18,023 nt of DNA from assembly GCA_017550445.1 (NCBI GenBank), contig JAFZOV010000045.1, forward strand, positions 1-18,023, read 5' to 3'. The position numbers and the translations under genes were made by a program. Below the pieces are notes generated by a model. It saw only the letters and a list, made by a program, of their open reading frames with translations. It was not told where the DNA came from and made no database searches. Position 1 is the first letter of the stretch; each line of letters opens with the position of its first letter. Of this stretch, positions 1 through 15,951 are shown one piece after another. This DNA is from Fibrobacter sp. (GTDB lineage Bacteria > Fibrobacterota > Fibrobacteria > Fibrobacterales > Fibrobacteraceae).

Positions 1-1
1 C

Positions 2-211
2 CTCACCCACGACCCGTACATGCTCTGCGCCGACTTCCGCAGCTACGTGGACATGCAGGCCAAGGTGGCGAAGGAATACCAGAACAAGAAGGCCTGGGCC
101 GAGAAGGCGATCCTCAACGTCGCTCGCATGGGCAAGTTCAGCTCCGACCGTACCATCAAGCAGTACGCCGACGAAATCTGGCACGCCAAGGGCTGCAGCA
201 TCAAGCTGTAA
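2..211 (+). CDS. glgP: Glycogen phosphorylase, C-terminal end (partial)
   Basis: Only the last 69 codons are present; the reading frame is open from base 2 and ends at TAA. The fragment carries the typical end of bacterial glycogen/alpha-glucan phosphorylases: a Y-x-x-C-A-D-F stretch, then W-x-x-x-A-I-L-N, then F-S-S-D-R-(T/S)-I and a final I-W-x-A-K. The enzyme removes glucose 1-phosphate from storage glycogen in the cytoplasm and uses PLP; the PLP lysine lies upstream of the window. A strong hairpin and T-run follow the stop, so the gene ends its transcript here and is separate from the convergent operon that follows. I am confident of the family from the tail; whether it is the glycogen or maltodextrin type cannot be decided from this fragment. 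Confidence 0.88.
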
Positions 212-237
212 TCTGACGCGACAACCGCAATTAAAAG

Positions 238-265
238 TCCCGCGAGCAATCGCGGGATTTTTTTT
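238..265 (+). terminator. Intrinsic terminator after glgP
   Basis: A perfect 7-bp GC-rich stem (TCCCGCG/CGCGGGA) with a 6-nt loop is followed by eight T. On the minus strand the same stem is followed by CTTTT, so it may also stop the convergent operon that ends at 278. Confidence 0.85.
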
Positions 266-277
266 CATTGTAAAAAA

Positions 278-439
278 TTAAGGATCTTCTAAAAGTTCCG
301 CATCAAACCACGCCAATAATTCACCATCTTTATCCAATACCGTCAAGTCACCGTCGTAGGTTACCTTGCGACCATCGGGAAGTTCCGTTGTTCCTTTTTT
401 AGGTTCATTCGTTTTGTCTGATTGATTCGATTTATCCAT
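278..439 (-). CDS. Small acidic hypothetical protein (53 aa)
   Basis: A 53-codon frame begins with ATG five bases after a good GAGGGG ribosome site and ends with TAA. The first 18 residues are polar and rich in Lys, Asn and Asp. The rest reads like a small beta-rich unit with D-G turns (LPDGRKVTYDGD, LDKDGE) and an acidic tail. There is no signal peptide, no membrane segment and no cysteine. It is the last gene of the tight operon that begins at 3894, only 16 nt after the stop of the 87-residue gene. Function unknown. The ribosome site and operon position support a real gene. Confidence 0.6.
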   Translation of the reverse strand: MDKSNQSDKTNEPKKGTTELPDGRKVTYDGDLTVLDKDGELLAWFDAELLEDP

Positions 440-455
440 AGTTTCCCCTCTTTTA

Positions 456-719
456 TCATCCTAGAGCCTCGATATACACCTTATCTTCCCAAAATCCGTT
501 CTCGGTACAGTCACAGAAAGTAGCTACACACTCGCAGCCTTTCGGAACATCGTCATAGGCGCTGATGACATACAAAGGAGCTTCGCCTTCAAATTCCTTC
601 GGGAAATGATTCCTCAAAATTAACGGCCCTGCAAAACGGGCTATGCCCGGCTCCGTATTGCCGAGGTATGCAATGTATTCCGAGCCGTCGGACAGTTTGG
701 CGATGCACTTGCATTTCAT
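456..719 (-). CDS. Hypothetical Cys-containing protein (87 aa)
   Basis: The start ATG follows AAGGAG by a normal distance, and the gene begins 23 nt after the stop of the 348-residue gene in the same operon. The protein opens with MKCKC and has a second Cys group near residues 62-70 (CEC...CDC). Paired cysteines at both ends suggest metal binding or disulfides, but no known zinc-ribbon spacing is obvious. There is no signal peptide or membrane segment. The motif K-L-S-D-G-S-E-Y-I-A-Y near the start resembles small beta-barrel proteins only in a general way. I do not recognise the family. Confidence 0.65.
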   Translation of the reverse strand: MKCKCIAKLSDGSEYIAYLGNTEPGIARFAGPLILRNHFPKEFEGEAPLYVISAYDDVPKGCECVATFCDCTENGFWEDKVYIEALG

Positions 720-742
720 GGTTAGTCTCCTTATTCAGCCGT

Positions 743-1789
743 TCATGCGTCTTCGCCTTCATCTGCGTCACCCACGTCATCGCAGTTTTCGCGCTCTTTT
801 TGTTCCATCTCGTATATGGTGATTTCGTCGAGGGTCGCGCCGATTTCTTCATCGGTCGACATCATGGTATCTATGTTTATGGTGACAGGGACACAATTTC
901 CGTCAAAACGTAACAAAAGGTCTACAACACGCCTTTTGTACTCAGGCGAAAGCATGCCGAAATTGAGGGCGATATTCTTGTCGCCGTCTGGGATTATCAA
1001 ATGAAGTGCTTTCTCGATAGCTTCGCGCAGCTTGTATTGCATCGATTCGAGTTCGCCCGCATTTAGGTCACTCTGCGTCTTGGGCTGTTGCGCCATGTAC
1101 GCCCCGACAACTTTCTTCGCAAGAGACAGAGTATACTCGTCGGTGCGGCCCTCAACATAGATTCTCGCACAGTCAGGGTCGTCCTGATTTCGGACATCGA
1201 TGCCTATGACATCTTTTGCATACAGGTCTGCAACTAGCTTCCCCGCATCGTCGCGGAAGAGGAAACTTGCGACATAATCCTTGTTTGTCCGTACACGGTA
1301 GAAAATCCGGTACATCGGAGGCAACCCCATCAGATAATCGACGACTTCCTGCGAAATCCACTGGCGCTTGAAAAAGCTCATTTTGGCTTTCCTTTGGAAG
1401 GATTGTAGTTCAGGTTGTAGTCGATGCTGTTCAGGCTGATTTTCTTCGGGAAAATCAACATTCAGGACGGAGTCGAGGTCGTTTAGGCATCCCCTCGTAT
1501 ATACGTCATAGTGCATCACAATCATCGGGGCGAGATAGTCGGCTACCTCATTATAACGTTCCTCGAATGACAAGTCGGATTTGGTTGCCGCAGACAAGAC
1601 GTGACTCGTGATACAACGGAGAATCGGCAGAATTACCCCAGCGCCGAGGTCAGAATTCTTTTCGGCAAGTTCGTCGAAAGCACCTTGTGCGCACTTGGCC
1701 AAATCTTGGACTTCGAGCATTTTTTTGTTGAAACTGGGCCTATCGGCGGACATCATCTCATAAAGTTTTCTGATGTTTTCTGCAGACAT
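743..1789 (-). CDS. Hypothetical cytoplasmic protein (348 aa)
   Basis: The start chosen is the ATG at 1789, preceded by GGAGG with 4-nt spacing. An in-frame extension to 1891 would run into the upstream peptidase gene and has no ribosome site. The first ~110 residues look helical. A polar Gln/Glu-rich linker at about 115-135 (PEENQPEQHRLQPELQ) separates them from a second half with mixed strands and helices. The C-terminus is strongly acidic (ending DADEGEDA). No signal peptide, membrane segment or catalytic motif is visible. It follows the M50-like peptidase by 13 nt and shares its operon. Function unknown; a cytosolic partner of the membrane proteins upstream is only a guess from position. 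Confidence 0.75.
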   Translation of the reverse strand: MSAENIRKLYEMMSADRPSFNKKMLEVQDLAKCAQGAFDELAEKNSDLGAGVILPILRCITSHVLSAATKSDLSFEERYNEVADYLAPMIVMHYDVYTRGCLNDLDSVLNVDFPEENQPEQHRLQPELQSFQRKAKMSFFKRQWISQEVVDYLMGLPPMYRIFYRVRTNKDYVASFLFRDDAGKLVADLYAKDVIGIDVRNQDDPDCARIYVEGRTDEYTLSLAKKVVGAYMAQQPKTQSDLNAGELESMQYKLREAIEKALHLIIPDGDKNIALNFGMLSPEYKRRVVDLLLRFDGNCVPVTINIDTMMSTDEEIGATLDEITIYEMEQKERENCDDVGDADEGEDA

Positions 1790-1802
1790 AGAACCTCCAT
1801 TA

Positions 1803-2408
1803 TTAAGCGATATGCCCAAGTACCATAAAGAAGATGAACAGCGGCACAATAAAAATCCAGACACCTCTAAAGTATAACGCGAGGTCCGCATCGCTCATGG
1901 TAGAATGGTCGACAAGTGAAATCACCAGGTACCAGAGCCCGATTTGAGCCCAGATAGGGAGGCCGCCCGCCCATACGATACGCAGCAAAATGTATCCGAG
2001 GACCAGTCCCACAACCGTCGGGGCCATTGCCGTCATTGCATGTTGCAACATCTGGATGAACCACGGCCCACGGGCACGGTAGCTTATATGTCCAAGTCGC
2101 CCTCCACCACTTTCGAACATGCAAATTTCTCGGACCTCCGCCCCGGTAATCACCGCAAAGCAAAGGTGCGCCATCTCGTGGACGAAAGTTCCAGGGAAAG
2201 TAACGAAGCTCACAAAAAAATGGGCGAATTTACGATTAAATTTGCCAATAACAATAATTTGCAATCGCTCTAAACCATAAAGCAACATGCCCGCAGCAAC
2301 AGGAGCGAGAATTGCTGCTGCCGTCAATATGGCACTGATACCCGCCAGGGCACCGATGCCGTTGCCCCATCCGAACCAAGCGATGATCTGTTGCATCAGG
2401 TATGTCAT
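1803..2408 (-). CDS. Membrane-embedded zinc metallopeptidase, M50-like
   Basis: The 201-residue protein is mostly hydrophobic, with about five membrane segments. An HExxH motif (HEMAH, residues 77-81) lies in the context F-P-G-T-F-V-H-E-M-A-H, as in M50-type intramembrane metallopeptidases, where the two His bind zinc and the Glu activates water. A later segment, A-M-A-P-T near residue 130, and S-x-x-D (TMSDAD) near 174-179 resemble conserved positions of this M50-like group; the third zinc ligand is not certain by eye. The ATG at 2408 is chosen because GGAGG lies 7 nt before it; a TTG at 2414 lies too close to that site. The ATG overlaps the stop of the amidohydrolase gene (ATGA), so translation is coupled. 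Possible roles are cleavage of a membrane substrate or of an exported peptide. Confidence 0.75.
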   Translation of the reverse strand: MTYLMQQIIAWFGWGNGIGALAGISAILTAAAILAPVAAGMLLYGLERLQIIVIGKFNRKFAHFFVSFVTFPGTFVHEMAHLCFAVITGAEVREICMFESGGGRLGHISYRARGPWFIQMLQHAMTAMAPTVVGLVLGYILLRIVWAGGLPIWAQIGLWYLVISLVDHSTMSDADLALYFRGVWIFIVPLFIFFMVLGHIA

Positions 2409-3163
2409 GGGCAAGCCTCCCCCTTTATTATGCGCATCGCGTTATCCCACGAGATCTTCTTCCATTTTTTCTCGGCTATCTTTTTGCTTGCCGCAATTCT
2501 TGCCCTTAAGTGGCGGGGCAGAGAACTTTTTAGGTGCCGTCCTGGAATCGGAGTGTCCGTTCCGAACAATATTCTATCGGCAAATCCCGCATTGAGTAGT
2601 ATTTGCAGATGTTCGTAAGGCATAAACGAGGTGTCCACATAGGTATTTGGACATTCTCGTAGCATTTGGATTGTTTGCGGCAATGGGCGTCCATGCGCGA
2701 GAACCACGGGAACATCAGCATAGGCGGAACATATTCTATTGTATAGTCCCGCCTCGCATTCCTCGCGCTCACCCGTATGTAGCATAACAAAAATTTTGTG
2801 TTCCTTGGCGATATCAAAGGCCCGCTTCAAATTTTTGCCGAATGGATCCCAATGCTCCGATACTCCATGAACCTTCAATCCGACGATTTTTCCTCCGACA
2901 TCGTTCATATATAGTGACAAGTCCTTCGATTTTTCGAGCATATCGTGTGTCACCCACAAGATGGGCTTTGCCTTACCACTTGACAACTCGTACATGGCGA
3001 CACGTTCTTCCAGCAAAAAATCTGAATCGTCCGTGACAACGGCACTTGTGCTGGAATAGGCGAAACGCGAAACGCCTGCTGCTCGCAAGGTACGCAGTAT
3101 TCGTGGCGGCGTGTAATAGTCGTCAAAAAACTGCCCCATATGAACGTGGATGTCGAAGAGCAT
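2405..3163 (-). CDS. Amidohydrolase-family metal-dependent hydrolase
   Basis: The 252-residue protein starts with F-D-I-H-V-H-M-G, the HxH metal motif (His6, His8) of the amidohydrolase/TIM-barrel superfamily. Later motifs fit the same fold: V-M-L-H-T-G-E, V-L-A-H-G-R and F-G-T-D-T-P, giving the second-strand His, third His and C-terminal Asp ligands. This is the PF04909-like group of hydrolases and decarboxylases; the substrate is unknown. The ATG lies 2 nt after the stop of the four-TM gene and the stop overlaps the start of the M50-like gene, so all three are translated together. A decayed copy of its first ~20 codons lies at 4051-4107. TatD nuclease is a less likely alternative. Confidence 0.8.
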   Translation of the reverse strand: MLFDIHVHMGQFFDDYYTPPRILRTLRAAGVSRFAYSSTSAVVTDDSDFLLEERVAMYELSSGKAKPILWVTHDMLEKSKDLSLYMNDVGGKIVGLKVHGVSEHWDPFGKNLKRAFDIAKEHKIFVMLHTGEREECEAGLYNRICSAYADVPVVLAHGRPLPQTIQMLRECPNTYVDTSFMPYEHLQILLNAGFADRILFGTDTPIPGRHLKSSLPRHLRARIAASKKIAEKKWKKISWDNAMRIIKGEACP

Positions 3164-3165
3164 CC

Positions 3166-3894
3166 CTATTTTTTATTGATGTCGTAGTTATAAAGAGGAT
3201 TGTCTGACAATCCCCAAGCCTGTATAGTATTTTGAAACCACGAGTCTTTGTTTTTTGCTTTTGATTTGGATTTTTTTGACCAATTGGCAGTAGCCTTTTT
3301 TAATTCCTTGTTAAGGTTCTTCATTTCTTCGATTAAGCCAGGTTCCTTAGGTCCCGGGAAATTGGGGATTTTCTTGCCCATGCCACCTTTTGCTTCTATT
3401 AGTCCTAGAAGCGCAACACCAATGACGTATGAAAGAACAATGAATACGGTGCGTAACGGGTCTTCTTGGAAGAATGCACATGCAATCAAGGCGAAGACAG
3501 AACCGACTAAACCGCCCGCAACCAAGGCTCGCAAGGCCTTGTACAAAAAATAACTGAAAACACCTGTTGCAATGGCGATAGCCAAAGCCGCAACGCAAAT
3601 CAACACAGACATGCCGGTACTGCAATCCATTAAAACGATTGCTACAATTGCTGCAACAATTTCTAGAACAATCGCGACTGCCGCAAAAGTGTGCTGAACC
3701 CGTCTTTCGTGCCAGATGGACCAATCCAGTTTTTGCAAGGGAGATAGCGCCTTCCATTCCTTTGCTGTTTTGGGAGTGTCCTTACTCCAATCGATATTCG
3801 TAAGCCGACGGGGATCTTTCGGGATTTCAAGCCCATTTGGCTGTTCCGAAACATTGCCAGCGTTTTCGTTTAATATTTCTTGTTGTTCTGACAT
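3166..3894 (-). CDS. Four-TM membrane protein of unknown function
   Basis: The ATG follows GGAGG by 6 nt. The protein has a polar N-terminal part (1-66), four hydrophobic segments at about 69-90, 96-118, 124-142 and 149-167, then a Lys-rich C-terminal tail with K-S-K-S-K-A-K near 210-215 and an aromatic end (WFQNTIQAWG...LYNYD). The tail and N-terminus are probably cytoplasmic. No transporter ATP-binding or catalytic motif is present. It heads the compact operon with the amidohydrolase and M50-like peptidase. A chimeric scar ends 17 nt upstream, so in the ancestral arrangement a SPASM radical SAM gene preceded this gene directly. A role in export or immunity is possible, but nothing in the sequence proves it. 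Confidence 0.75.
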   Translation of the reverse strand: MSEQQEILNENAGNVSEQPNGLEIPKDPRRLTNIDWSKDTPKTAKEWKALSPLQKLDWSIWHERRVQHTFAAVAIVLEIVAAIVAIVLMDCSTGMSVLICVAALAIAIATGVFSYFLYKALRALVAGGLVGSVFALIACAFFQEDPLRTVFIVLSYVIGVALLGLIEAKGGMGKKIPNFPGPKEPGLIEEMKNLNKELKKATANWSKKSKSKAKNKDSWFQNTIQAWGLSDNPLYNYDINKK

Positions 3895-3911
3895 AACTGA
3901 CCTCCGTGTGG

Positions 3912-4107
3912 TTAGGTTTTATTTTCTCTCATTTTAGCTTTGGCATCTTCAACGAGTTTTCTGTTTAGGTGAGCCGCCTTACAGAAATGTGGAGCAATCT
4001 TCAAATAATCACCACCACTTTCGTTGAAGTTGCGGACCAGGCAGGGCGCACAATATTCGTAGCGATGTGTAATAGTCATTAAAATACTGTCCTATATGAA
4101 AATCGAA
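3912..4107 (-). pseudogene. Chimeric gene scar: amidohydrolase 5' end joined to SPASM radical SAM 3' end
   Basis: Bases 4107-4051 read F-D-F-H-I-G-Q-Y-F-N-D-Y-Y-T in one frame, a degenerate copy of the start of the amidohydrolase at 3163. Two codons are missing so that the HxH metal motif is lost. From about 4060 a different frame reads Y-C-A-P-C-L-V-R-N, then G-G-D-Y-L-K and P-H-F-C, ending R-E-N-K-T. This matches the end of the SPASM maturase at 4782-6245 (C-S-I-C-P-A-R-N, N-G-D-Y-M-K, H-H-C, R-N-K-T). The two parts are out of frame, so no fusion protein is made. An ATG at 4079 would give a 55-residue peptide from the SPASM tail, without a convincing ribosome site. I read this as a deletion scar between two lost genes. 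Confidence 0.8.
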
Positions 4108-4161
4108 AAAAAACACACAAAGTCGCCCCTAAATTTTATGCACCCTTAACATTTCTTCCTA

Positions 4162-4785
4162 TTATAGAGTGCAATATACGGCAATTGAAATTAGGATTAT
4201 CGCAATTATTATGGCAATTTTAATACATCCCTTATCACTAGTATCATTCTCTTTTAAGGCAGACTTTCTATCTTCATCTAAGTTTATTAATGAAAAATTT
4301 TGTTTGGCATTATCAACGATTTCTCTAAACATCTCTTCAAGCTGTATATCTTTCCAGGGGTGCATGGCGCCCCCCTGTATTATCATTTTTGGATGGGAAG
4401 AGGGATCGTCGTTGATATAACGCTCCCGTGCCAGTTGAAAATACAAATTCGCCCATTTATCCCCAAATTTTTCAAATTTCCAAGGCATAATTTTCTCTAT
4501 GTCACTTATTGAATCAATCCTTTTTGTTTCAAGTAAAAAAACAAATTGCCAAGTGAATGCATAGCGTTCTACGTCATTAAATGGATATTCTACTAAAGGA
4601 GGATTGTAATTATCTTCAAAATGGACTGACGCCAAATATGCGTGTATTTTTTCGTGAACAATCCAACCATCAGGGTCTTTTTGAACATCATAATTAGACC
4701 GAACGTTTATGGAGTCCGTTTTTACATCATATTCGGTAGGGTCAAGTTTTTTCCAAACCAGGTAATTAATTGGTTTTATATTCAT
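4162..4785 (-). CDS. Membrane-anchored HExxH protein, candidate RiPP leader protease
   Basis: This 207-residue protein has a zinc-peptidase-type motif V-H-E-K-I-H (HExxH at 44-48). About 25 residues later comes V-E-R-Y-A-F-T-W-Q-F-V-F-L, where the Glu could be the third ligand of a gluzincin. The body is soluble, and one hydrophobic helix at about 186-205 (IAIIIAIILISIAV) ends the chain, so it is probably tail-anchored. Its ATG overlaps the TGA of the radical SAM gene (ATGA), with AGGA 8 nt upstream, so the two are translationally coupled. The coupling suggests that it acts on the same peptide, for example by removing the leader. Metalloprotease activity is inferred only from the motif; I do not recognise the family. 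Confidence 0.7.
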   Translation of the reverse strand: MNIKPINYLVWKKLDPTEYDVKTDSINVRSNYDVQKDPDGWIVHEKIHAYLASVHFEDNYNPPLVEYPFNDVERYAFTWQFVFLLETKRIDSISDIEKIMPWKFEKFGDKWANLYFQLARERYINDDPSSHPKMIIQGGAMHPWKDIQLEEMFREIVDNAKQNFSLINLDEDRKSALKENDTSDKGCIKIAIIIAIILISIAVYCTL

Positions 4786-6245
4786 GTTTTATTCCTGTTA
4801 GAAAAGACTTCTTGTGCAATTTTATAATTTAAGGCCACTACATCACAATGATGTTTCGAAGGTTTCATATAATCGCCATTTGTCTCGCTGGCGTTTCTTG
4901 CAGGACAAATGCTGCAAAATGTTTGGTAATCACAGCCGCCACATTGAGTAAAATCACCTTTTTTCAACTTGCGTAATTTAAGAATCGTCGGTGATTTTTC
5001 CCAAATATCTTTAATTGGTTGATCCTTTACATTGCCACATGACATTTTTGTCCATCCCGAACAAGGGAATACATCTCCTGTTGCTGCAATATGTAAGGAG
5101 TCTCGTGCAATTCCGCATATTGGTTCATTTGCCCAGTTTGGATTACGATGAGGCTCAAAAGCATCTGATGTTATAGATTTTACATAATCAGGATCATATT
5201 TCATTATATCATGTAGAAGTTCATCCGTTTCTTCTAATGACAATCGCTCTTGTAAATTATCGGTTGTGTAATCTGAACGACCCATCATAATAAAGTCGGT
5301 GGATGCCTTACAATTTCTCTCATGGGCATATTCTAAAACTTTCTTATATGAGCGATAATTTGTATGCATAGTGGGACAAGCTATTTGAACAGGTATATTC
5401 GCCGCAATTAGTTGTTCGATAACAGCTTTTGTCTTTTCGCACGATCCAGGTAATTGAGTTATGTGGTCATGTTCTTCAGGAATTACGGAATAAAGCGATG
5501 TTTGTATATGGGCAACATCAAGCTCTTGAAGTAACTTAATATGTTTTGGTTTTATAAGGGTTAGGTTAGAAAGAATACAAAACGAAAAATCATATTCTCT
5601 TGCCAAAGTCAAAATCTTTTCAATATCTGGGTGCATAAACGGATCTCCACCTGTTATGGTGAGAGCTATGGTATGCATTTCTTTTGAAAGTTGCTTTAGA
5701 GAAGAGTCTACTACATCGATTGGTAGTATTTGATTCTTATCTTGATGAGGAATGTAGCAATGAATGCATCTTTCGTTACAACGATTGGTGACCTCAATTT
5801 GACAAGCATGTATTTGCGGAATTTGATTGTGTTTTGCTGTCAATATATTTGTCGAATCAGTATAAGATTGCTTATCATCGGGATTATCTAAAAAGTTATA
5901 TGAAATAGTTTTAGGATTATCTTGATAAGAGAAGGTCTTGTCTTTTTCTTTAATATCGGCCTCGTTGTATCCAGAAACAATATATTGATCTTTTTCTAGA
6001 CTACTGAGAAAATCTGTCAAATCTTTCTTTATTTCAGTGATAACAGCATCTTCAAAAGATGTCTTTATTTTTTTTAATATTTCGTCAAAAGTTTGCATTT
6101 TTCGCGAGAGCGCCGACAAAAACACACTCCCGATTTCATCGTAGACACGATCGTGACGATTCAACTGATTTGTTATATATCCATAATCATCAAAAATGCG
6201 AATAAAGGCATTTTTGGAAAGTCTGAAATAAATGTTGTTATTCAA
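4782..6245 (-). CDS. Radical SAM-SPASM peptide maturase with N-terminal PqqD-like domain
   Basis: The 487-residue protein has three parts. Residues 1-95 resemble a PqqD-like RiPP recognition element (Y-F-R-L-S...G-Y-I-T-N-Q-L, then helices). The radical SAM core starts near 148 with C-N-E-R-C-I-H-C (Cys156, 160, 163) for the SAM-binding [4Fe-4S] cluster and has G-G-D at 199-201. The SPASM region holds Cys377, 395, 403, 435, 438, 444, 447 and 467, enough for two auxiliary clusters. Such enzymes install thioether or C-C crosslinks in short peptides. The start is a TTG six bases after AGGAG; no in-frame ATG lies near. It follows the 47-residue peptide gene by 75 nt and overlaps the HExxH gene. 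The DNA is visibly more AT-rich than the housekeeping genes, suggesting transfer. Confidence 0.93.
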   Translation of the reverse strand: MNNNIYFRLSKNAFIRIFDDYGYITNQLNRHDRVYDEIGSVFLSALSRKMQTFDEILKKIKTSFEDAVITEIKKDLTDFLSSLEKDQYIVSGYNEADIKEKDKTFSYQDNPKTISYNFLDNPDDKQSYTDSTNILTAKHNQIPQIHACQIEVTNRCNERCIHCYIPHQDKNQILPIDVVDSSLKQLSKEMHTIALTITGGDPFMHPDIEKILTLAREYDFSFCILSNLTLIKPKHIKLLQELDVAHIQTSLYSVIPEEHDHITQLPGSCEKTKAVIEQLIAANIPVQIACPTMHTNYRSYKKVLEYAHERNCKASTDFIMMGRSDYTTDNLQERLSLEETDELLHDIMKYDPDYVKSITSDAFEPHRNPNWANEPICGIARDSLHIAATGDVFPCSGWTKMSCGNVKDQPIKDIWEKSPTILKLRKLKKGDFTQCGGCDYQTFCSICPARNASETNGDYMKPSKHHCDVVALNYKIAQEVFSNRNKT

Positions 6246-6256
6246 TTTAAGCTCCT

Positions 6257-6331
6257 AAAAAGGACGGAAATAGAATGGAGAAAGAATCTCCATTCTGTTT
6301 GTTTCCAGCATTGCCGTAATTTACGGTCCTT
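6257..6331 (-). promoter_or_regulatory. Hairpins between precursor and maturase genes (likely attenuator)
   Basis: Read on the minus strand, a palindrome spans the precursor stop (CCGTAA/TTACGG, 6314-6326). Next is a perfect 9-bp stem with a 7-nt loop (AGAATGGAG/CTCCATTCT, 6272-6296). An outer 6-bp AAGGAC/GTCCTT pairing (6326-6331 with 6260-6265) ends directly before TTTTT and the AGGAG of the maturase. This would cause partial termination or mRNA protection and favour precursor over enzyme. Confidence 0.55.
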
Positions 6332-6464
6332 GATAATCGCAACGAATGCACCATTCAATGTGATTATTGTATTGAGAGGGACATCCAGCAGCAAAACTAC
6401 CGCTCGGATTGTTCTTCGCAATCAGACGGGGCTTCTTGTAAGCCATCTTCTTTGTTGTCTTCAT
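6321..6464 (-). CDS. Putative RiPP precursor peptide (47 aa, three Cys)
   Basis: This short frame has an ATG six bases after GAGG and ends with TAA. The N-terminal ~20 residues are basic (K-K-M-A-Y-K-K-P-R, then A-K-N-N-P), like a leader. A G-S-F-A-A-G-C-P block at 22-29 is followed by a core with two more cysteines at 39 and 42 (C-I-R-C). Gly/Ala/aromatic residues next to Cys are typical substrates for SPASM thioether-forming enzymes. The gene lies just upstream of the RRE-radical SAM maturase on the same strand, behind a long structured leader. An in-frame ATG at 6476 would add four residues but lacks a ribosome site. The product and crosslinks are inferred; I cannot assign a named precursor family. 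Confidence 0.8.
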   Translation of the reverse strand: MKTTKKMAYKKPRLIAKNNPSGSFAAGCPSQYNNHIEWCIRCDYQGP

Positions 6465-6623
6465 AATATACCTCATGAGAGTATGTTATCCCCGCAACCT
6501 GTTGCGCACCATGCCGCGCGGGTTTCGGCACAGTGCGTTTTGCGTATGCAAAAGCCATTCGCCAGACCGAAGTCTGGTGTTCGCCCCTGCTCTGCAAAGA
6601 TTGCGCCGATTATGTGAGAAAAC
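6465..6623 (-). promoter_or_regulatory. Structured 5' leader of the RiPP precursor
   Basis: Between the terminator-like hairpin and the precursor start, the minus strand can fold into consecutive hairpins: CCAGAC-TTCG-GTCTGG (6562-6577), TTTTGC-ATAC-GCAAAA (6538-6553), GTGCCG/CGGCAT (6511-6531, extended by flanking GCAC/GTGC), and GCAAC/GTTGC (6494-6505). A 60-codon frame crosses this stretch (6486-6668), but its start has no clear ribosome site and the sequence looks constrained by pairing rather than coding. A leader RNA or RNA-based control element is the best reading. Confidence 0.5.
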
Positions 6624-6702
6624 AAAAAAGGCGCGAGTCGTTGCATCTATCACGCTGAGGCTCTGCATTGCCTATAACCGATAAACGCAAACGACCCACG
6701 CC
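6624..6702 (-). terminator. Long stem followed by T-run upstream of RiPP precursor
   Basis: On the minus strand 6702-6690 pairs with 6630-6642 over 13 consecutive positions (two G-U), extended by two more pairs after one bulge, around a 42-nt apical region; TTTTTTGTTTT follows. It is either the 3' end of an upstream non-coding RNA or transcript, or an attenuator inside the RiPP operon leader. Confidence 0.65.
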
Positions 6703-6977
6703 CCAAACGGGCTGCTGCCAATAACCAGCCTAGCGGCTGATACGGCAAACCGAGGCACACCGAAAAATGGCATACCTGCGTGAGCGTTCGCCCTGTCCTC
6801 GGTTATTTGAAATTTGCAGATTTCAGCGTGAGAACATGGACAAAACTCTTTATTCTGCTCTAAAACTACTATATAATTTCAGAAATGGCGTCAAAACCCC
6901 AAAAATTTTTAAGAAAAATGTACGAAAATCACATCTTTTAGCCGAAAATGCGGTTTTTGAGCGAATTTGGCCGATTC
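6703..6977 (-). promoter_or_regulatory. Intergenic leader region with alternative pairings; no gene seen
   Basis: No credible coding frame is present. On the minus strand, AACCGAGG/CCTCGGTT (6748-6755 with 6797-6804) competes with AATAACC/GGTTATT (6720-6726 with 6801-6807), because both use 6801-6804. A weak promoter candidate lies at 6868-6894 (TTGACG, 15 nt, TATAGT, the -10 overlapping TATATAG). If it is active, it would make a ~400-nt leader for the peptide gene or a ~230-nt RNA ending at the terminator at 6624. The stretch 6860-6977 is simply AT-rich. Confidence 0.35.
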
Positions 6978-7538
6978 TTACCCCGCGATGTCCATCAGGT
7001 CATAATACATGAGACGCGTGTGTGGGTCATCGTCTTCGGCGTTCATGAAGCGGAAACCGTTCTTTTCATAGAACGGTACAGCATCCAGATAGGCGTCCAC
7101 CGTCAAGAAGCGGCAGCCGGTTTTGTTCTCGGTGACAAACATCCATTTGATGTAATCCAGCATTCCTGAACCAATCTGATTACCTTTTGCCGAGACATCA
7201 ACACCCAAACGGCACAACTTGACCGCAGGATAGCTCTTCAAACGTTTTTCGTTTGGAAAACCACGCTTCTTGCGAAAACGGTTGAACTCTGATTTGTCCT
7301 TGAAGTCTGTTATGGAGACTTTGTCATTGGCGAGACTGCAATAGGCGTAAACCTCGCTTGCGTCATCAACATTAACACATGCATAAGTAACAGCAATCAA
7401 ATACTTTTGAAATGCCGATGCACGGTTTAGAATAAAATCATTCAGATCCCTATCCCCGCAGTCAAAATGATTAACAGCTTTGGTGGGGCGTAGCCGGATA
7501 AAATCCAGATGTGACTTGTCTATACGGTTCTGAAGCAT
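6978..7538 (-). CDS. GNAT acetyltransferase, probable TacT-like toxin
   Basis: The 186-residue protein shows F-D-C-G-D-R-D-L-N-D-F-I near 25-36, the typical N-terminal signature of TacT/AtaT-related GNAT toxins. The acetyl-CoA loop region is C-R-L-G-V-D-V-S-A-K-G-N-Q-I-G-S-G, and P-F-Y-E-K-N-G-F lies near the end. Toxins of this group acetylate charged tRNA and block translation. Its ATG lies 9 nt after GGAGG and overlaps the 3' end of the upstream 72-residue gene by 19 nt, the usual antitoxin-toxin layout. It is slightly longer than the common ~160-170 residues. It could instead be a housekeeping GNAT enzyme; the paired small gene favours toxin. Confidence 0.8.
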   Translation of the reverse strand: MLQNRIDKSHLDFIRLRPTKAVNHFDCGDRDLNDFILNRASAFQKYLIAVTYACVNVDDASEVYAYCSLANDKVSITDFKDKSEFNRFRKKRGFPNEKRLKSYPAVKLCRLGVDVSAKGNQIGSGMLDYIKWMFVTENKTGCRFLTVDAYLDAVPFYEKNGFRFMNAEDDDPHTRLMYYDLMDIAG

Positions 7539-7738
7539 GGATCATCACCTCCGTTGGCTTCTTCACGGGCGCGCATTTTAGCCATGCCACGTTCATAAGC
7601 TTTTTTGAAAAGTTCGTAATTCCGCTGGATGCGGGCACGAACTTCCGGAGGTTCCGGGTGCCGCTCTTCCATACGGGCTAAAAACCGGCGAGCATCCTCG
7701 CCGAACAAAATCGGGGTCTCTCGAATTTCGCGAGCCAT
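7520..7738 (-). CDS. Small partner of GNAT toxin (putative antitoxin, 72 aa)
   Basis: The ATG at 7738 is chosen because AGAGGA lies just upstream; a longer frame to 7777 has no ribosome site. The protein is charged and mostly helical. T-P-I-L-F-G-E-D-A-R-R-F near residue 7-18 is followed by a long basic/acidic helix (R-I-Q-R-N-Y-E-L-F-K-K-A-Y). It lacks the ribbon-helix-helix look of the usual DUF1778 antitoxins, so DNA binding is uncertain. The 19-nt overlap with the GNAT gene implies coupled translation. An antitoxin role is inferred from position only. Confidence 0.65.
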   Translation of the reverse strand: MAREIRETPILFGEDARRFLARMEERHPEPPEVRARIQRNYELFKKAYERGMAKMRAREEANGGDDPCFRTV

Positions 7739-7770
7739 GATTCCTCTTTTGTTATAAGCTATATAGAAAA

Positions 7771-7784
7771 CTGGCAAAAGCCAG
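7771..7784. promoter_or_regulatory. Inverted repeat upstream of the GNAT pair (possible operator)
   Basis: CTGGC-AAAA-GCCAG, a perfect 5-bp inverted repeat, lies 33 nt upstream of the antitoxin ATG and just upstream of a TATATAG element (minus strand, 7759-7765). Autoregulation of the pair at this site is plausible but unproven. Confidence 0.3.
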
Positions 7785-7912
7785 GCGGCAACCTGTCAAG
7801 TCGGTTCCATTGTCCAAAATATACTTAATGCCAAAACAAAAAACAACCCCTTATGCTTGGAGTCGTTCATTTTGTCAACTGTTTTGCCAGAAACTAAAAA
7901 ATGGCGGCGAAG

Positions 7913-8830
7913 TTAGTTACTTGCAATTTTCACGCAGTCAGCCGCCGTCTGCGCTAGTCGTTTGCCCCAGTCGCCGCACGCCCCGTCCAAAAGCTTCAAG
8001 AAGAACTTGTGTTCGTTCTCAAGCGAGTCGGGAATATGCGCAATATCCCCATTTTCGAGATAATGCGCCAGGCTCACAGTGTAATCGGAGCCAGGGGAAC
8101 CGCCCTGCCGGCCATAACTCACGGAAATCGTGCGCACGTCCACGTCGCTATCGCGGTTCGCATAAAAGTCCGCAGACACGCCCTTGTAGGGCCCGCGGAC
8201 CACCTTCAAGTAAAGCCTCGCCCTGTCGCGGGACTCGGCCGAAGTCTTGAACGAGACTTCGACATCTTCGTACCGGAACAGCGTGAAGAACAGCCCGAGG
8301 TCGTGTACCAGCAGGTCCACGGAAACGTCCACGTCGCGGCAACGCGGGGAATACTGGTGCTCGCGCCGGAATTCAAGACGGACGGCGGGCACGCCTTTTG
8401 CAGGCAATTCAGGCGAATTGCCACGCGTTTCATACAAACTATTCAATTCCAGCAGAAAGTGCTTGCGGAAGTTCAAGAAGAGCGGGTTGAAACATTCCGA
8501 TTGCGCGACAAACAGGAGCGTATTGTTCTGCTCCGAAAGCGCCACAAGTTCTTGCGCCTCCTCGCCGGTGATGGCGAGCGGTTTTTCAACCAACACGGGA
8601 ATTTTCCGTTCCAGGAAAAACTTCGCGTACCCGTAATGCGAACTCGCCGGAGTCGACACAACCGCAAAATCGAATTCCTTGCCCGCGATGGAGGCGGCCA
8701 GCACGGATTCATCGGAACATTCCTTGTCCAGCACGGCGACAAATTCCACCCCGCACGCCTCGAAACGAGCACGGTGCCGCCCGCCCATGGTTCCGTTCCC
8801 GATAAGGACCGCCTTATATTGCTTTGTCAT
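7913..8830 (-). CDS. Gfo/Idh/MocA-family NAD(P)-dependent oxidoreductase
   Basis: The 305-residue protein begins with a Rossmann dinucleotide motif, G-N-G-T-M-G-G-R-H at 11-19. It has the family hallmark E-K-P (82-84, in V-L-V-E-K-P-L-A) and D-V-S-V-D-L-L-V-H-D-L, the usual substrate-side His segment. Members oxidise or reduce sugars, inositols and related alcohols, or act in sugar-nucleotide pathways; the substrate here is not evident. The ATG directly follows the TGA of the phosphopantetheinyl transferase gene, whose last codons supply the GGGGGAG ribosome site, so translation is coupled. The pairing is unusual and does not tell the substrate. Confidence 0.88.
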   Translation of the reverse strand: MTKQYKAVLIGNGTMGGRHRARFEACGVEFVAVLDKECSDESVLAASIAGKEFDFAVVSTPASSHYGYAKFFLERKIPVLVEKPLAITGEEAQELVALSEQNNTLLFVAQSECFNPLFLNFRKHFLLELNSLYETRGNSPELPAKGVPAVRLEFRREHQYSPRCRDVDVSVDLLVHDLGLFFTLFRYEDVEVSFKTSAESRDRARLYLKVVRGPYKGVSADFYANRDSDVDVRTISVSYGRQGGSPGSDYTVSLAHYLENGDIAHIPDSLENEHKFFLKLLDGACGDWGKRLAQTAADCVKIASN

Positions 8831-9511
8831 TCACTCCCCCTTTAAATCAACTTCCATTACCTTTACCGGGTGCGTCTCCGGCGCACCCTTCAGGCAATAC
8901 GCATATCGAAAATCGTCATCGCGATCCAGTTCGCGGAACAGATACTCGGGCCTTACGCCATCGTGGTCGAGAACAATCCCCTCCGGCGAAAGCGTCAAGG
9001 AGAACTTGTCCGGAGTTAGCGACAGCCCGCGCCCGGTGACCTTCATGTAGCATTCCTTCAGCGTCCACAGGCGGTAAAATGCAGTATCCTGCTCGACGCC
9101 TTCCGCAAAGGAACGGATCCAGCACGTCTCGTTTTCCATGAAGAAGCGCTCGGCCAAGCGCGAACGCCCGACACGCACGTGTTCCACATCGCAGCCCACC
9201 TCGTAAGGCGAAATCACGCACATCGCACGTGTTTTGGAATGCGACAGATTGAAATGCACATCGGGCACGTCGCGGAATGCAGGTTTGCCGTTTTCGCCAG
9301 TAACTACATGGGCGTCAGCACCCTCGATTCCATAATCGCGGCACGCACGACGCAGCAGGAGCCCCACCGCAAGCGATTGCGACTTCCCGCTTTGAAACTT
9401 GAAGCGCATTGCCTTCTCGCGGCGGTATGCAGGAACCGTCCCGAGCAAGCGTTCAAAAACTGCCGGGTCGTCCAATACCGAAATGTCCGCCGTATAGACA
9501 AGCGTATCCAT
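8831..9511 (-). CDS. 4'-phosphopantetheinyl transferase, Sfp/Gsp type
   Basis: The 226-residue protein (start ATG 9511) carries the two transferase signatures: V-G-C-D-V-E-H near 105-111, with Asp108 and Glu110 for Mg, and W-T-L-K-E-C-Y at 149-155 with the catalytic Lys-Glu. H-F-N-L-S-H-S at 86-92 is the usual upstream motif, and the length fits the Sfp group. The enzyme moves phosphopantetheine from CoA to a carrier-protein serine. An upstream extension to 9556 lacks support. The ATG has no ribosome site but lies 6 nt after TATATTG, suggesting a leaderless transcript. It is cotranscribed with the oxidoreductase. No PKS or NRPS gene is visible nearby, so it may serve fatty-acid ACP. Confidence 0.9.
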   Translation of the reverse strand: MDTLVYTADISVLDDPAVFERLLGTVPAYRREKAMRFKFQSGKSQSLAVGLLLRRACRDYGIEGADAHVVTGENGKPAFRDVPDVHFNLSHSKTRAMCVISPYEVGCDVEHVRVGRSRLAERFFMENETCWIRSFAEGVEQDTAFYRLWTLKECYMKVTGRGLSLTPDKFSLTLSPEGIVLDHDGVRPEYLFRELDRDDDFRYAYCLKGAPETHPVKVMEVDLKGE

Positions 9512-9517
9512 ACCGCG

Positions 9518-9524
9518 CAATATA
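9518..9524 (-). promoter_or_regulatory. TATATTG -10 element of the transferase gene
   Basis: TATATTG on the minus strand ends 6 nt before the ATG at 9511, consistent with a leaderless start. See the recurring motif reported in the findings. Confidence 0.45.
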
Positions 9525-9561
9525 GCAATTTGGACCCGTTGCACGCCACACCGCAAAGATT

Positions 9562-9568
9562 TATATTT
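9562..9568 (+). promoter_or_regulatory. TATATTT -10 element of ybaK
   Basis: TATATTT ends 8 nt before the ATG at 9577, and no ribosome site lies between, so a leaderless or near-leaderless mRNA is likely. Confidence 0.45.
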
Positions 9569-9576
9569 TGCATCAT

Positions 9577-10077
9577 ATGGATATCAAGAAGACAAACGCA
9601 GCGCGCATTCTCGACCGGCAGAAAATTTCTTACGAACTCATCCCGTACAAGGTCGACGAAAACGACCTGGGCGCACAGCACGTGGCCGACAGCCTCGGCG
9701 AAGACATCAATCAGGTTTTCAAGACCATCCTCGTGCATGGCGACAAGATCGGCTACCTCGTATGCGTCGTGCCGGGGAACCTCGAAGTGGATTTGAAGGG
9801 CGCCGCAAAGGTGAGCGGCAACAAGAAAATCGACACCGTCCCGCTCAAGGACCTCACTCCGCTTACCGGCTACATCCGCGGTGGTTGCAGCCCGCTCGGG
9901 CTCAAGAAGAATTTCCCGATATTCATCCACGAGACGGCAATGCAGTTCCCGTTCATCTACGTGAGCGCAGGCGAACGCGGCTTGCAGTTGAAGGTGGCGC
10001 CCGCCGATTTGGTGAAGGCGACGCGTGCGACCGTAGGCGTTATCGCAAGAGTCCCGCCCGAAGCCCCGCAGGACTAA
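9577..10077 (+). CDS. ybaK: YbaK/EbsC-type Cys-tRNA(Pro) deacylase
   Basis: The 166-residue protein matches the YbaK/ProX editing fold. It begins with N-A-A-R-I-L-D-R-Q-K-I-S-Y-E near residue 7-20, has H-V-A-D-S-L-G near 36, F-K-T-I-L-V near 48, then K-V-S-G-N-K-K and the G-Y-I-R-G-G-C-S-P-L-G-L-K-K signature. These proteins hydrolyse cysteine mischarged on tRNA(Pro). The ATG at 9577 is preferred; a TTG at 9568 would add three residues without a ribosome site. The gene stands alone, divergent from the transferase, and ends in a strong terminator. YbaK and EbsC paralogues cannot be told apart here. Confidence 0.9.
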   Translation: MDIKKTNAARILDRQKISYELIPYKVDENDLGAQHVADSLGEDINQVFKTILVHGDKIGYLVCVVPGNLEVDLKGAAKVSGNKKIDTVPLKDLTPLTGYIRGGCSPLGLKKNFPIFIHETAMQFPFIYVSAGERGLQLKVAPADLVKATRATVGVIARVPPEAPQD

Positions 10078-10087
10078 ATATCAAAAG

Positions 10088-10119
10088 AGCCTCTCCCGAA
10101 GGAGAGGCTTAATTTTTTT
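10088..10119 (+). terminator. Intrinsic terminator after ybaK, probably bidirectional
   Basis: A perfect 9-bp stem (AGCCTCTCC/GGAGAGGCT) with a CGAA loop is followed by TAA and seven T. On the minus strand the loop reads TTCG and CTTTTG follows, so it also fits the end of the convergent xylanase gene. Confidence 0.9.
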
Positions 10120-10131
10120 CAGCAAACCGGA

Positions 10132-11244
10132 TTACTTCACCGTGATGCTGCGGACAGTCGAGCCCTGCTTCACCATATAAACGCCGGAGTGGAACCTAGC
10201 CTTGATGGCCGTGGTCAAGGCCGCATCGTTCTCCGTCTCGAAGGAACTGAGGAACTTGCCCTGGGCGTCAAACACGAACGACGTCTTGCTGACAATCGCC
10301 ATAGAACGTATTCCCTGGAGAGCCGTAGTCGACGAACTGCTAACTACGGGAACAACGGAAGAACTGGGCGGAGCAACAGAGGAGCTAGACCGCACAACGG
10401 AAGAACTAGACCGAGCAACAGAAGAACTAGAGCGTGCAACAGAGGAACTAGACGGAGCTACAGAAGAGCTGGACGGCGCATCGCCTTCGATATAGACCTT
10501 GGCGTAGGGGAAGTCGTATTCGCCCCGGGCCTGCGCGCCGTTGGAGTTTCCGGCCTCACCAAGAATCTTGGCCTCGTGCATCTTGCCCATCTTCATGCCG
10601 AGTTCCTCCCACTTCTTGAAGTGGGCGGTAATGTCGATAGTACCGCAATCGCGCTTCGATGTACGGACACTGAAATACTGCTTGAAATACTTGTTGTCGC
10701 CATCGATGGAATAGGAAGTGCGGTCACCTTCGTAAACCGTATAATCGGCGCCATCGATTTTGAACACGCCATGCTTCTTTGCAGAAGAGCCCTGAGCAAC
10801 CCAGTCGCCAGGCATATAGTCACTACCGGTGTTATCCACGATGTACCATTCCACTAGGGGCTCGCGGGTCCAGCCGTAAATGCCGATGTAGGAATACTGG
10901 ATTCCGGAAAGACCGCTCTTGACCAGCTTGAAATCCGCCTTCATGTGGCCAAGTTCAGTATGAGTCTTGTCGCTATTGAACGAAAGGCCCGCACGGCACA
11001 GATAGTCCTTGGCGCCGGTCATCTTGCAGTTGAAAGAGCCGTCGTCATAGAACGTCGCGGAACCACCGTTACCGCCTTCGTTCCAGAGTTCGTAGCCAAT
11101 ACCATTGCTGAACGACCCCACTTTATTCGTGGTAAGTTCCACTTTGGATCCGCTATGGGCGGCAGTTTGACAGAAATCCTGTGCAAAAGCATTTGCAGTC
11201 AGGGCACACGTGGCAATTAAGCCATACTTGAGAAAAGCTTTCAT
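10132..11244 (-). CDS. Secreted GH11 endo-1,4-beta-xylanase with Ser-rich linker
   Basis: The ATG at 11244 follows AAGGGA and starts a signal peptide (residues 1-21, cleavage after A-F-A). The GH11 domain spans about 22-255. E-P-L-V-E-W-Y-I-V holds the nucleophile Glu132, and A-K-I-L-G-E-A-G-N holds the acid/base Glu230; N-E-G-G-N-G and Y-A-K-V-Y-I-E-G fit the jelly-roll ends. A linker of about six S-S-S-S-V-A-R-like units runs over 257-305. The last ~60 residues (ending F-H-S-G-V-Y-M-V-K...V-R-S-I-T-V-K) resemble the short C-terminal domains of Fibrobacter surface enzymes, probably for sorting or attachment. It cuts xylan outside the cell. It is divergent from the GH16 gene, sharing a palindrome. 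Confidence 0.93.
   Translation of the reverse strand: MKAFLKYGLIATCALTANAFAQDFCQTAAHSGSKVELTTNKVGSFSNGIGYELWNEGGNGGSATFYDDGSFNCKMTGAKDYLCRAGLSFNSDKTHTELGHMKADFKLVKSGLSGIQYSYIGIYGWTREPLVEWYIVDNTGSDYMPGDWVAQGSSAKKHGVFKIDGADYTVYEGDRTSYSIDGDNKYFKQYFSVRTSKRDCGTIDITAHFKKWEELGMKMGKMHEAKILGEAGNSNGAQARGEYDFPYAKVYIEGDAPSSSSVAPSSSSVARSSSSVARSSSSVVRSSSSVAPPSSSVVPVVSSSSTTALQGIRSMAIVSKTSFVFDAQGKFLSSFETENDAALTTAIKARFHSGVYMVKQGSTVRSITVK
10357..10485. repeat. 21-bp tandem repeat coding the xylanase linker
   Basis: About six imperfect 21-bp units, each reading GAAGAACTAGACCG-GCAACA on the plus strand, code for S-S-S-S-V-(A/V)-(R/P) on the minus strand. Such units can change number by slippage. It is a coding repeat; the units abut without spacers, so it is not CRISPR. 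Confidence 0.8.
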
Positions 11245-11313
11245 ATAAACATCCCTTTTTGAGAAATTTACTACAATAAACACTTTTTTGCAGGGGGCGT
11301 TCTCCGCGCCCAT

Positions 11314-11330
11314 TATTCCAAGTTGGAATA
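11314..11330. promoter_or_regulatory. 17-bp perfect palindrome between GH11 and GH16 genes
   Basis: TATTCCAA-G-TTGGAATA is a perfect 8+1+8 inverted repeat. It lies 69 nt upstream of the xylanase ATG and 28 nt upstream of the TATATTT element of the GH16 gene, a position suited to a transcription factor acting on both. Confidence 0.5.
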
Positions 11331-11358
11331 TTTAGTGCCTTGATTTTGAAATTTAGGC

Positions 11359-11365
11359 TATATTT
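11359..11365 (+). promoter_or_regulatory. TATATTT -10 element of the GH16 gene
   Basis: TATATTT ends 5 nt before the GTG start at 11371, consistent with a leaderless mRNA. Confidence 0.45.
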
Positions 11366-11370
11366 AGAGA

Positions 11371-12474
11371 GTGTTCCAGAAAACCGCAGCATCACTCATA
11401 ATCGTCACGGCAGCAAGCACCGTGCTTTTCGCGTGCTCATCCGATTCGAACAGTTCCGGCCCAGAAGATGAGCTGTCCACGACGTCATCCTCCAGCATCG
11501 ACGTCCTGATTCCATCTTCCGACGATGCGACGTCTTCTTCCGATGTCACGACATCTTCCGGCGAGGCGCCTGCCGAATCTTCCAGCAGTACAATCGGCGA
11601 TTTATCTTCTAGCGACACTCCGCCGTCCAGCAGTTCTTCCCAAGCCGTCATTCTGAGCAGCGATAGCCGCGATATACGAGACTGTACAACTTGTTGTACT
11701 AGTGGAGTTATCCCCTGTGAGGAAGAATCCAGTAGCAGTACACCCCTCTCCTCCAGCGAATCCCCCTACTTCTGGAATGACGAGTTCGACACCATCGACA
11801 CTACCAAGTGGACATTCGAGATAGGCACGGGCGCAAGCGGTTGGGGCAACAACGAGAAGCAGTATTACACGGGCCGCAGCGAGAACGCCTACGTGCAAGA
11901 CGGCATCCTCCACATCCGCGCAAACAAGGAAAGCTACGAAGGCTCCGGCTACACATCGGCGCGCATGATCACCAAGGGCAAGTTCAGCTTTACCTACGGA
12001 ACGGTCGAAGCCCGCATCGCGCTACCCGTAGGCAAGGGAATCTGGCCCGCCTTCTGGATGCTCGGCGAGAACATCGACCAGGTTTCCTGGCCGGCCTGCG
12101 GAGAAATCGACATCATCGAGGCCGTCAATACCGAGCACATCATTTACGGCACCAACCACTGGTCCTATAATGGCGACCATGCGCAATACGGCAAAAACAC
12201 CGGCGATTATTTCGGCAAAATCTTTGAGCTGGACATCACCGAATTCCACACCTACAAATTTACCTGGGACAAAAAAACCATCACCATGTTCGTGGACGAC
12301 TTCAAGTACCACGAAATGACCATCGAAGACAATGCCGGCGGAACCGACGCTTTCCACAAACCGCAGTTTTTCTTGTTGAATGTCGCCGTGGGCGGAAACT
12401 GGCCCGGCTTCGAAATAGACGACGCGCAGTTCCCCAACGAAATGCTTATTGACTACATCCGCGTCACGAAATAA
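11371..12474 (+). CDS. GH16 endo-beta-1,3(4)-glucanase lipoprotein
   Basis: The 367-residue protein starts with GTG and has a lipoprotein signal with L-F-A-C (Cys22), so it should sit in a membrane with its catalytic domain outside. A Ser/Thr/Asp-rich linker covers about 23-130 and contains a Cys group (D-C-T-T-C-C, 104-109, and Cys116). The GH16 domain covers 133-367. The catalytic motif is G-E-I-D-I-I-E (Glu245 nucleophile, Asp247, Glu250 acid/base). The extra residue before the second Glu is the beta-bulge form seen in laminarinases, not the E-I-D-I-E form of lichenases. W-P-A-F-W-M and N-V-A-V-G-G-N-W-P-G also fit. Substrate is probably beta-1,3 or mixed-linkage glucan. Confidence 0.92.
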   Translation: MFQKTAASLIIVTAASTVLFACSSDSNSSGPEDELSTTSSSSIDVLIPSSDDATSSSDVTTSSGEAPAESSSSTIGDLSSSDTPPSSSSSQAVILSSDSRDIRDCTTCCTSGVIPCEEESSSSTPLSSSESPYFWNDEFDTIDTTKWTFEIGTGASGWGNNEKQYYTGRSENAYVQDGILHIRANKESYEGSGYTSARMITKGKFSFTYGTVEARIALPVGKGIWPAFWMLGENIDQVSWPACGEIDIIEAVNTEHIIYGTNHWSYNGDHAQYGKNTGDYFGKIFELDITEFHTYKFTWDKKTITMFVDDFKYHEMTIEDNAGGTDAFHKPQFFLLNVAVGGNWPGFEIDDAQFPNEMLIDYIRVTK

Positions 12475-12490
12475 TCGTCACGGACAATCG

Positions 12491-14276: not shown

Positions 14277-14282
14277 CGCTAT

Positions 14283-14289
14283 AAATATA
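14283..14289 (-). promoter_or_regulatory. TATATTT -10 element of the TIGR02147 gene
   Basis: TATATTT on the minus strand ends 6 nt before the ATG at 14276, without a ribosome site between. Confidence 0.5.
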
Positions 14290-15945: not shown

Positions 15946-15951
15946 AAACGC

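Follow-up and report, generated by a model that had tools for sequence, protein, structure and literature searches.

A conserved pair of a short three-cysteine peptide and a radical SAM-SPASM maturase marks a candidate locus for modified peptides in Fibrobacter

We report that a stretch of DNA from Fibrobacter sp. (Fibrobacteraceae; GenBank assembly GCA_017550445.1, contig JAFZOV010000045.1, positions 1 to 18,023; hereafter the window, i.e. the whole 18,023 nucleotides (nt) analysed) carries a 47-codon gene, recognised as real by sequence comparison, for the putative precursor of a ribosomally synthesized and post-translationally modified peptide (RiPP), followed by the gene of a radical S-adenosylmethionine (SAM) maturase with a SPASM region and an N-terminal part modelled as a RiPP recognition element (RRE). 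The conservation of short gene and maturase gene as a pair is well established by comparison of genomes; that the two are precursor and modifying enzyme appears highly probable, and the locus very probably represents a real, so far unnamed family of modified peptides. The complete reading, i.e. a precursor, an RRE-docked maturase, modification of a Cys-containing core and an amidohydrolase as partner, is the one we favour, with some reserve. On the minus strand the order is 5' element, peptide gene, 75 nt, maturase gene, the gene of a protein with an HExxH motif, a scar, and the genes of a membrane protein, an amidohydrolase and an M50B-like protein. Fibrobacter is a major degrader of fibre in the rumen.

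The peptide gene and its parts are:

6321..6464 (-): 47-codon precursor peptide gene (67 proteins, alignment, codon substitutions in the leader block)
6423..6440 (-): YKKPRL, a motif of the YxxPx[L/V/I/F/A] type and the expected RRE binder (from its sequence and the lasso RRE motif in part of PMC13381572; Y9 and P12 are invariant in 19 loci)
6324..6383 (-): presumed core (Cys28 to C-terminus), with CP, a variable loop and CxxCD (60 distinct loops in the 62/67 proteins that fit the pattern; the leader/core border is putative)

The gene (6464..6321) encodes MKTTKKMAYKKPRLIAKNNPSGSFAAGCPSQYNNHIEWCIRCDYQGP, with Cys at positions 28, 39 and 42; GAGG precedes its ATG at 6464, and an alternative in-frame start at 6476 would give 51 codons. 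A protein search returned a family of 67 proteins including the window's own (E values from 6.5e-27 to 3.7e-7). The first-pass annotation, made from the letters of the window alone, had proposed a three-Cys peptide gene of this length upstream of a maturase and had set its conservation in related loci as a test, and on both points these relatives bear it out. When they are aligned, the N-terminus is near-fixed (YKKPxLIAKNNPTGSFAAGCP) and is followed by a variable loop and CxxC. The AGCP-loop-CxxC pattern is present in 62 of the 67 proteins (all except P0168, P0178, P0182, P0185 and P0187), with loops of 6-15 residues, 60 of them distinct, in which Gly, Asn, Asp, Ser, Tyr and Thr are abundant and some Trp occurs; the residue after CxxC is Glu in 49, Asp in 10, Gln in two and Lys in one. 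The three Cys vary least within this otherwise variable part, and three Cys, as the cores of sactipeptides and ranthipeptides require, are found in 19/19 aligned loci. Kept in these 19 loci, including the divergent ones of G014, G018 and G024, are Y9, K11, P12, A16, K17, N18, P20, G22, S23, G27, C28, P29, C39 and C42. For the 21-codon YKKP..GCP block the median rates of non-synonymous (dN) and synonymous (dS) substitution are 0.053 and 1.17, and the median dN/dS is 0.036 (122/190 pairs yielding a value; 20 loci, the window included and L010 excluded). The ten contig loci in which a related peptide was found each bear the label of Fibrobacter, its family or its order. Three peptides have NHIEWCIRCD in common, and our guess is that all three pair with the maturase branch of the window. 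The precursors tested lie outside NCBIfam (window, L001 and L129) and Pfam (window): the window's peptide matched no model of either up to E 10, and those of L001 and L129 none of NCBIfam. The notion that gene callers overlook the peptide is only partly right, because some of its relatives are annotated at NCBI as hypothetical proteins.

Among 111 Fibrobacteraceae genomes the peptide profile matches 19, or 18 after removal of G098 with its three in-frame stops. The maturase is present in 17 genomes, every one within these 18 (Fisher p 4e-19, without correction for kinship), and in the 18th, G008, the sequence becomes N right after a maturase-like start. Phylum-wide (167 genomes), a profile built from those very 18-genome loci returns the same 18 once G075, G098 and G166, the matches of which contain stops or are a fragment, are set aside; in G153, outside the family, there is a 125-residue maturase match (E 3e-53), and the peptide search gave no match. 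The peptide is single-copy in 17/18 genomes. In most Fibrobacter loci other genes separate peptide and maturase, and the simplest form, in which peptide, maturase and amidohydrolase genes follow each other with nothing between, occurs as three units in G024 and one in G018.

The maturase and its parts are:

4782..6245 (-): RRE-radical SAM-SPASM maturase, 487 residues, TTG start (Pfam, alignment, model, Foldseek)
5961..6245 (-): N-terminal RRE-like winged-helix part, about residues 1-95 (secondary structure of the model; PqqD Pfam match sub-threshold)
5757..5780 (-): CxxxCxxC radical SAM motif (invariant in 51 rows)
4845..5117 (-): SPASM region with seven invariant Cys (Pfam SPASM; alignment)

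Pfam Radical_SAM (1.1e-21) and SPASM (3.1e-11) both match the maturase over their cut-offs. The Cys of the CxxxCxxC motif (156, 160 and 163) and seven later ones (377, 395, 435, 438, 444, 447 and 467) are invariant in the 51 aligned rows, in agreement with the full set of SPASM cysteines claimed earlier. The structure model (mean predicted local distance difference test (pLDDT) 88.3, predicted template modelling (TM) score 0.89) has at its N-terminus the strands and helices expected of an RRE, and by this model the domain is present. The first eight Foldseek matches are chains of CteB, SuiB and SkfB (E 5e-16 to 2e-13, query TM 0.50-0.62, 14-17% identity), with CteB on top. No named NCBIfam maturase model is above its cut-off among the 25 of 59 models shown, the best reaching 119.8 against 500 bits. 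In PADLOC the maturase matches viperin models (2e-16 and 3e-12), the matches being confined to its radical SAM part, and no known anti-phage system was recognised. A quick tree of 42 rows places the maturase in one group with P0002 and P0003, separate from the remaining Fibrobacter maturases (Shimodaira-Hasegawa-like approximate likelihood ratio test 100). Two other proteins are of note: P0041 (826 residues), which groups with the plasmid/virus branch, is a natural fusion of a radical SAM-SPASM part and an RRE-radical SAM-SPASM maturase, and P0034 carries the NCBI label Bacteroidaceae and sits inside the Fibrobacter branch, indicating a mislabelled bin or a transfer.

Relatives of the maturase are also found on mobile DNA. 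Of nine plasmid records with such a relative, seven (five from E. coli, one from Salmonella and one from Photobacterium) cover at least 80% of the maturase at ~36% identity, and each of the four that were read has a 38-codon open reading frame (ORF), MSYSKPTVLAKSSTYMAQCRPNSKPSGRPCNPPGPSGR, 75-77 nt ahead of the maturase gene:

L128 4813-4929; L129 and L130 4809-4925; L131 2782-2898: 38-codon ORF before a radical SAM gene (conjugative plasmids)

The encoded protein is identical among the Photobacterium, E. coli and Salmonella copies read, and between the Photobacterium and E. coli copies there are 17 synonymous codon differences and no non-synonymous ones. The PLSDB gene table, self-described as incomplete, does not contain the ORF. 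Immediately before it, three of the four records list a recombinase gene. Two virus-like contigs, L132 and L133, carry relatives of the maturase (36 and 32% identity), with upstream ORFs that contain MIYKRPEILAQGTVKMAECKPNSKPSGRPCNPPRPTGR and MKKYQTPTLVAQSTVKMADCRPNRRPCGRPCNPPGPGGR. The pair of L132 (4594-6464, an IMG/VR contig) shares its contig with phage terminase and endolysin genes and looks like a phage passenger; that of L133 lies beside integrases. A motif-bearing upstream ORF is thus present in 6/6 full-length relatives read (four plasmid and both virus-like). A loose rule (30-60 residues, [Y/W]xxPx-hydrophobic near the start and two Cys afterwards) picked out, of 2344 windows, 14 with true peptides and five others. 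As judged from these sequences, the leader motif recurs across the maturase family, with a core that varies in Fibrobacter and hardly changes in the mobile branch.

The remaining features of the locus are:

6462..6572 (-): 5' element ahead of the peptide gene, common to peptide loci and to peptide-less sites elsewhere (14/111 genomes)
4162..4785 (-): HExxH protein with a C-terminal membrane helix, an optional passenger (2/111 genomes)
3912..4116 (-): scar, in which an N-terminal amidohydrolase fragment is joined to the tail of a different type of maturase (61.5% identity over 26 residues; 91% to P0032 over 47 residues)
3166..3894 (-): hotspot gene, the membrane protein of which has five hydrophobic segments (the peptide-less site L114 has a relative at 60% identity)
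2405..3163 (-): metal-dependent amidohydrolase, recurrent partner (Pfam Amidohydro_2 1e-18; 16/18 peptide genomes)
1803..2414 (-): M50B-like membrane protein, hotspot gene (Pfam Peptidase_M50B 0.0048, sub-threshold; relatives in L006, L114 and L115)

At E 1e-20 the amidohydrolase is found in 14/111 genomes, 13 of them among the 18 with the peptide (Fisher p 4e-12), and a 26%-identical amidohydrolase gene follows the maturase gene in G005, G007 and G039; it is therefore present in 16/18 peptide genomes. In G009 amidohydrolase and maturase are on a different contig from the peptide, and in G080 the amidohydrolase gene is upstream of it. Residues H6, H8, K97, H129, H157 and D203, which we take to be metal ligands, are invariant in 14/14 sequences, and PADLOC gave no match. 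By gene content, then, the recurrent third gene is that of the amidohydrolase (2405-3163), which falls outside the interval 4162..6464 marked in the first-pass annotation, rather than the HExxH gene. There is a precedent in RiPP processing, since part of PMC10885120 describes how the amidohydrolase PurAH takes off the follower of bottromycin, and by analogy the enzyme may process the product here, a role that we rate as possible if somewhat short of probable.

The surroundings of the pair change from strain to strain. The 5' element is present in 14/111 genomes, i.e. seven times at the peptide, in six genomes without it, and once at a second place in G007. At peptide-less sites it precedes other genes, e.g. 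for an FRG protein (L115) or for a relative of the L001 passenger (L111), and relatives of the window's membrane protein (60%, L114) and M50B-like protein (56% in L114 and 66% in L115) occur at such sites. The L115 copy (4093-5265) is the second one in G007, ahead of the FRG-domain gene, and the same genome has the peptide elsewhere. Between peptide and maturase there are genes for an FRG protein in L035 (Pfam 3e-16; PADLOC PDC-S15 6e-45), Zn-ribbon-like proteins in L006 and L008, membrane proteins in L001 and L040, and a second SPASM enzyme in L006 and L033, which in L010 is encoded behind the maturase. Proteins of ~95 residues from L001, L002, L003, L008 and L040 are joined by a chain of similarity in which some links are weak. 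Of the 33 sequences in the comparison of hotspot proteins, L114_62 was in the wrong frame and is left out of account; some genes were overlooked by the simple gene caller, and for these tblastn results were used. In the scar (3912-4116) the amidohydrolase start (E 2e-4) and the maturase tail read as the remnant of an earlier arrangement of the locus. G093 has neither peptide nor maturase and does have the HExxH gene, the 5' element, neighbours that resemble those of peptide loci and a possible 16-residue amidohydrolase remnant (E 0.038); at this site (L082, 3112-6063) a 60-codon ORF follows the 5' element. The comparison of gene content identifies the locus as a gene-swapping hotspot. Divergently upstream of the peptide in L006 lies a helix-turn-helix gene (Pfam HTH_3 5e-5) with relatives in L007 and L009, and by eye ACAGATGTCTGT-type palindromes are seen upstream of the peptide in these three loci, which suggests regulation in the strains concerned. 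Further along the window (6978-7777), the start of a GNAT-domain gene is overlapped by an 85-codon gene, presumably a toxin-antitoxin-like arrangement, and relatives of both are found near the peptide in L008.

The gene, its conservation and pairing, the leader motif, the enzyme architecture and the turnover of the locus are what was computed; docking, thioether chemistry, the role of the amidohydrolase and the biological role are what we infer. According to PMC13381572, lasso RREs recognise [Y/W]xxPx[L/V/I/F/A], and YxxP is essential for RRE binding in another RiPP family; a YxxP motif appears also in PMC12710340. Because YxxP-type motifs are bound by RREs in other RiPPs, the leader of the 47-residue precursor would be expected to dock via YxxPxL on the N-terminal RRE of the neighbouring radical SAM-SPASM enzyme, and the enzyme would then modify the Cys-containing core, most likely by thioethers that join the three Cys to positions within the variable loop or close to it; we consider the chances of Cys-based cross-links to be evenly balanced. 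The amidohydrolase would most likely trim or hydrolyse the product. Diversifying pressure on the product, e.g. a narrow antibacterial or a recognition signal, would be in keeping with a loop that varies between fixed Cys. The product is probably specific to the strain and used against or between close relatives, as would suit the fixed leader, the variable loop and the changing passenger genes; a function among close relatives is nonetheless only a tentative proposal. Equally speculative is a polymorphic system of rivalry or recognition between close relatives. Here the hotspot would swap cassettes in which a hypervariable cross-linked peptide, its maturase and the amidohydrolase are combined with guard or immunity genes that change (FRG, membrane, Zn-ribbon, HExxH and diverging ~95-residue proteins), and conjugative plasmids and phage-like DNA would carry a sister lineage of the leader-maturase pair in which the core hardly varies.

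Several observations weigh against this reading. The constancy of the leader is partly an effect of the search, because the search works with words of the query; the core of the G010 peptide is disrupted, and the frame is interrupted in 3/17 maturases (one TGA in G014, split genes in G100 and G005), all of which may be assembly errors. Genomic context was seen for a minority of the 1710 protein relatives of the maturase, and two weaker, partial plasmid relatives (H8 and H9) showed no such peptide. The first-pass annotation had described a PqqD-like N-terminus: model and fold matches uphold an RRE-like part, and the Pfam PqqD match (0.011) is under its cut-off. The amidohydrolase was not seen in G014, could not be judged in G008 and occurs without the peptide in G072. 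No transporter was seen in the parts of the loci that were read.

With the same precursor and maturase, the links in the loop could instead be carbon-carbon or other non-thioether bonds, streptide- or cyclophane-like, and the Cys could bind metal or form disulfides. SuiB is among the nearest folds and the composition of the loops would suit such chemistry, yet no residues of the variable part are better kept than the three Cys, and the first fold match, CteB, is a thioether maturase; we regard this alternative as rather unlikely, although it deserves weight. A scaffold or cofactor precursor, like those of pyrroloquinoline quinone, mycofactocin or pearlin, from which a small molecule is cut out and the remainder discarded, would agree with the fact that no transporter was seen nearby and with the single peptide copy in 17/18 genomes, and the amidohydrolase and the window's M50B-like protein could act inside the cell. 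It would call for a constant core, which the mobile branch fits better than Fibrobacter with its 60 distinct loops among 62, and we hold it to be very improbable. That the ORF is a regulatory leader or arose by chance ahead of the maturase is scarcely credible: it is indeed short, 75 nt upstream of the enzyme and variable in its 3' half, but the dN/dS of the leader, the 17:0 ratio of synonymous to non-synonymous changes in the plasmid branch, the mere five other matches to the loose rule in 2344 windows and the genes that separate peptide and maturase in most Fibrobacter loci all speak against it.

The remaining alternative concerns the HExxH protein, seen in the first-pass annotation as the leader protease in a set of precursor, maturase and protease. 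As described there, a membrane-anchored protein follows the maturase: the gene (4785..4162, minus strand) encodes HEKIH at residues 44-48 and one C-terminal hydrophobic helix, and its ATG overlaps the maturase stop. The gene is behind the maturase also in G007 (locus L007), for 4/17 sequences the length of the longest contig is exactly that of a maturase or peptide cluster (an indirect sign, drawn from part of the lists), and H44, E45 and E73 are invariant. Against a protease role, it is present in 2/111 genomes, one of them without the peptide (p 0.30 for association), the second His is replaced by Arg in 2/17 sequences so that the motif is kept in 15/17, the fold matches of its model (pLDDT 72) are not significant, and PADLOC gave no match. 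We therefore treat it as an optional passenger and a leader protease as improbable; of the proposed set, precursor and maturase have strong backing from their conservation and co-occurrence, from the leader motif and from the plasmid and virus pairs.

For the favoured reading, a fixed leader with about 60 natural loops offers a ready-made set with which to probe the tolerance of the maturase family. The same leader motif before related maturases in Fibrobacter, on enterobacterial and vibrio plasmids and on virus-like contigs also provides a direct way to overlooked precursors.

Our search of the open literature, preprints and most subscription papers being outside its scope, turned up no radical SAM RiPP described for Fibrobacter, and part of PMC4289311 lists no RiPP type for Fibrobacteres. 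Lasso peptides are alike in the RRE-binding leader motif [Y/W]xxPx[L/V/I/F/A] (part of PMC13381572). They differ in that the processing enzyme here is a radical SAM protein. No lasso cyclase domain (PF00733) or leader protease domain was found among the 19 proteins, from part of the window, scanned with Pfam. Streptide (SuiA/SuiB) shares the RRE-radical SAM-SPASM fold; SuiB is a Lys-Trp cross-linking enzyme, whereas the peptide here has three Cys and no evident Lys-Trp pair, and identity is 14-15%. In bottromycin biosynthesis a RiPP is processed by an amidohydrolase, the dinuclear-zinc enzyme PurAH/BotAH (part of PMC10885120), and the present locus also encodes an amidohydrolase. The comparison is at the level of enzyme class, and no YcaO gene was recognised among the window proteins scanned. 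A plasmid cluster of Candidatus Thiodictyon (L134) has a PqqD-radical SAM gene, a second radical SAM gene and an adjacent amidohydrolase gene, the product of which is 24% identical to that of the window; its maturase is 31% identical over the radical SAM-SPASM part only, there are extra YcaO and TfuA genes, and no YxxP precursor was recognised. From the sactipeptide and ranthipeptide systems (CteB, SkfB and PapB) the locus is set apart by ~14-17% identity, by NCBIfam models far under their cut-offs, by a precursor that matches no NCBIfam model and by thioethers that are here putative, while the two are alike in an RRE-radical SAM-SPASM maturase that adjoins a short Cys-containing precursor, with CteB and SkfB among the top eight folds.

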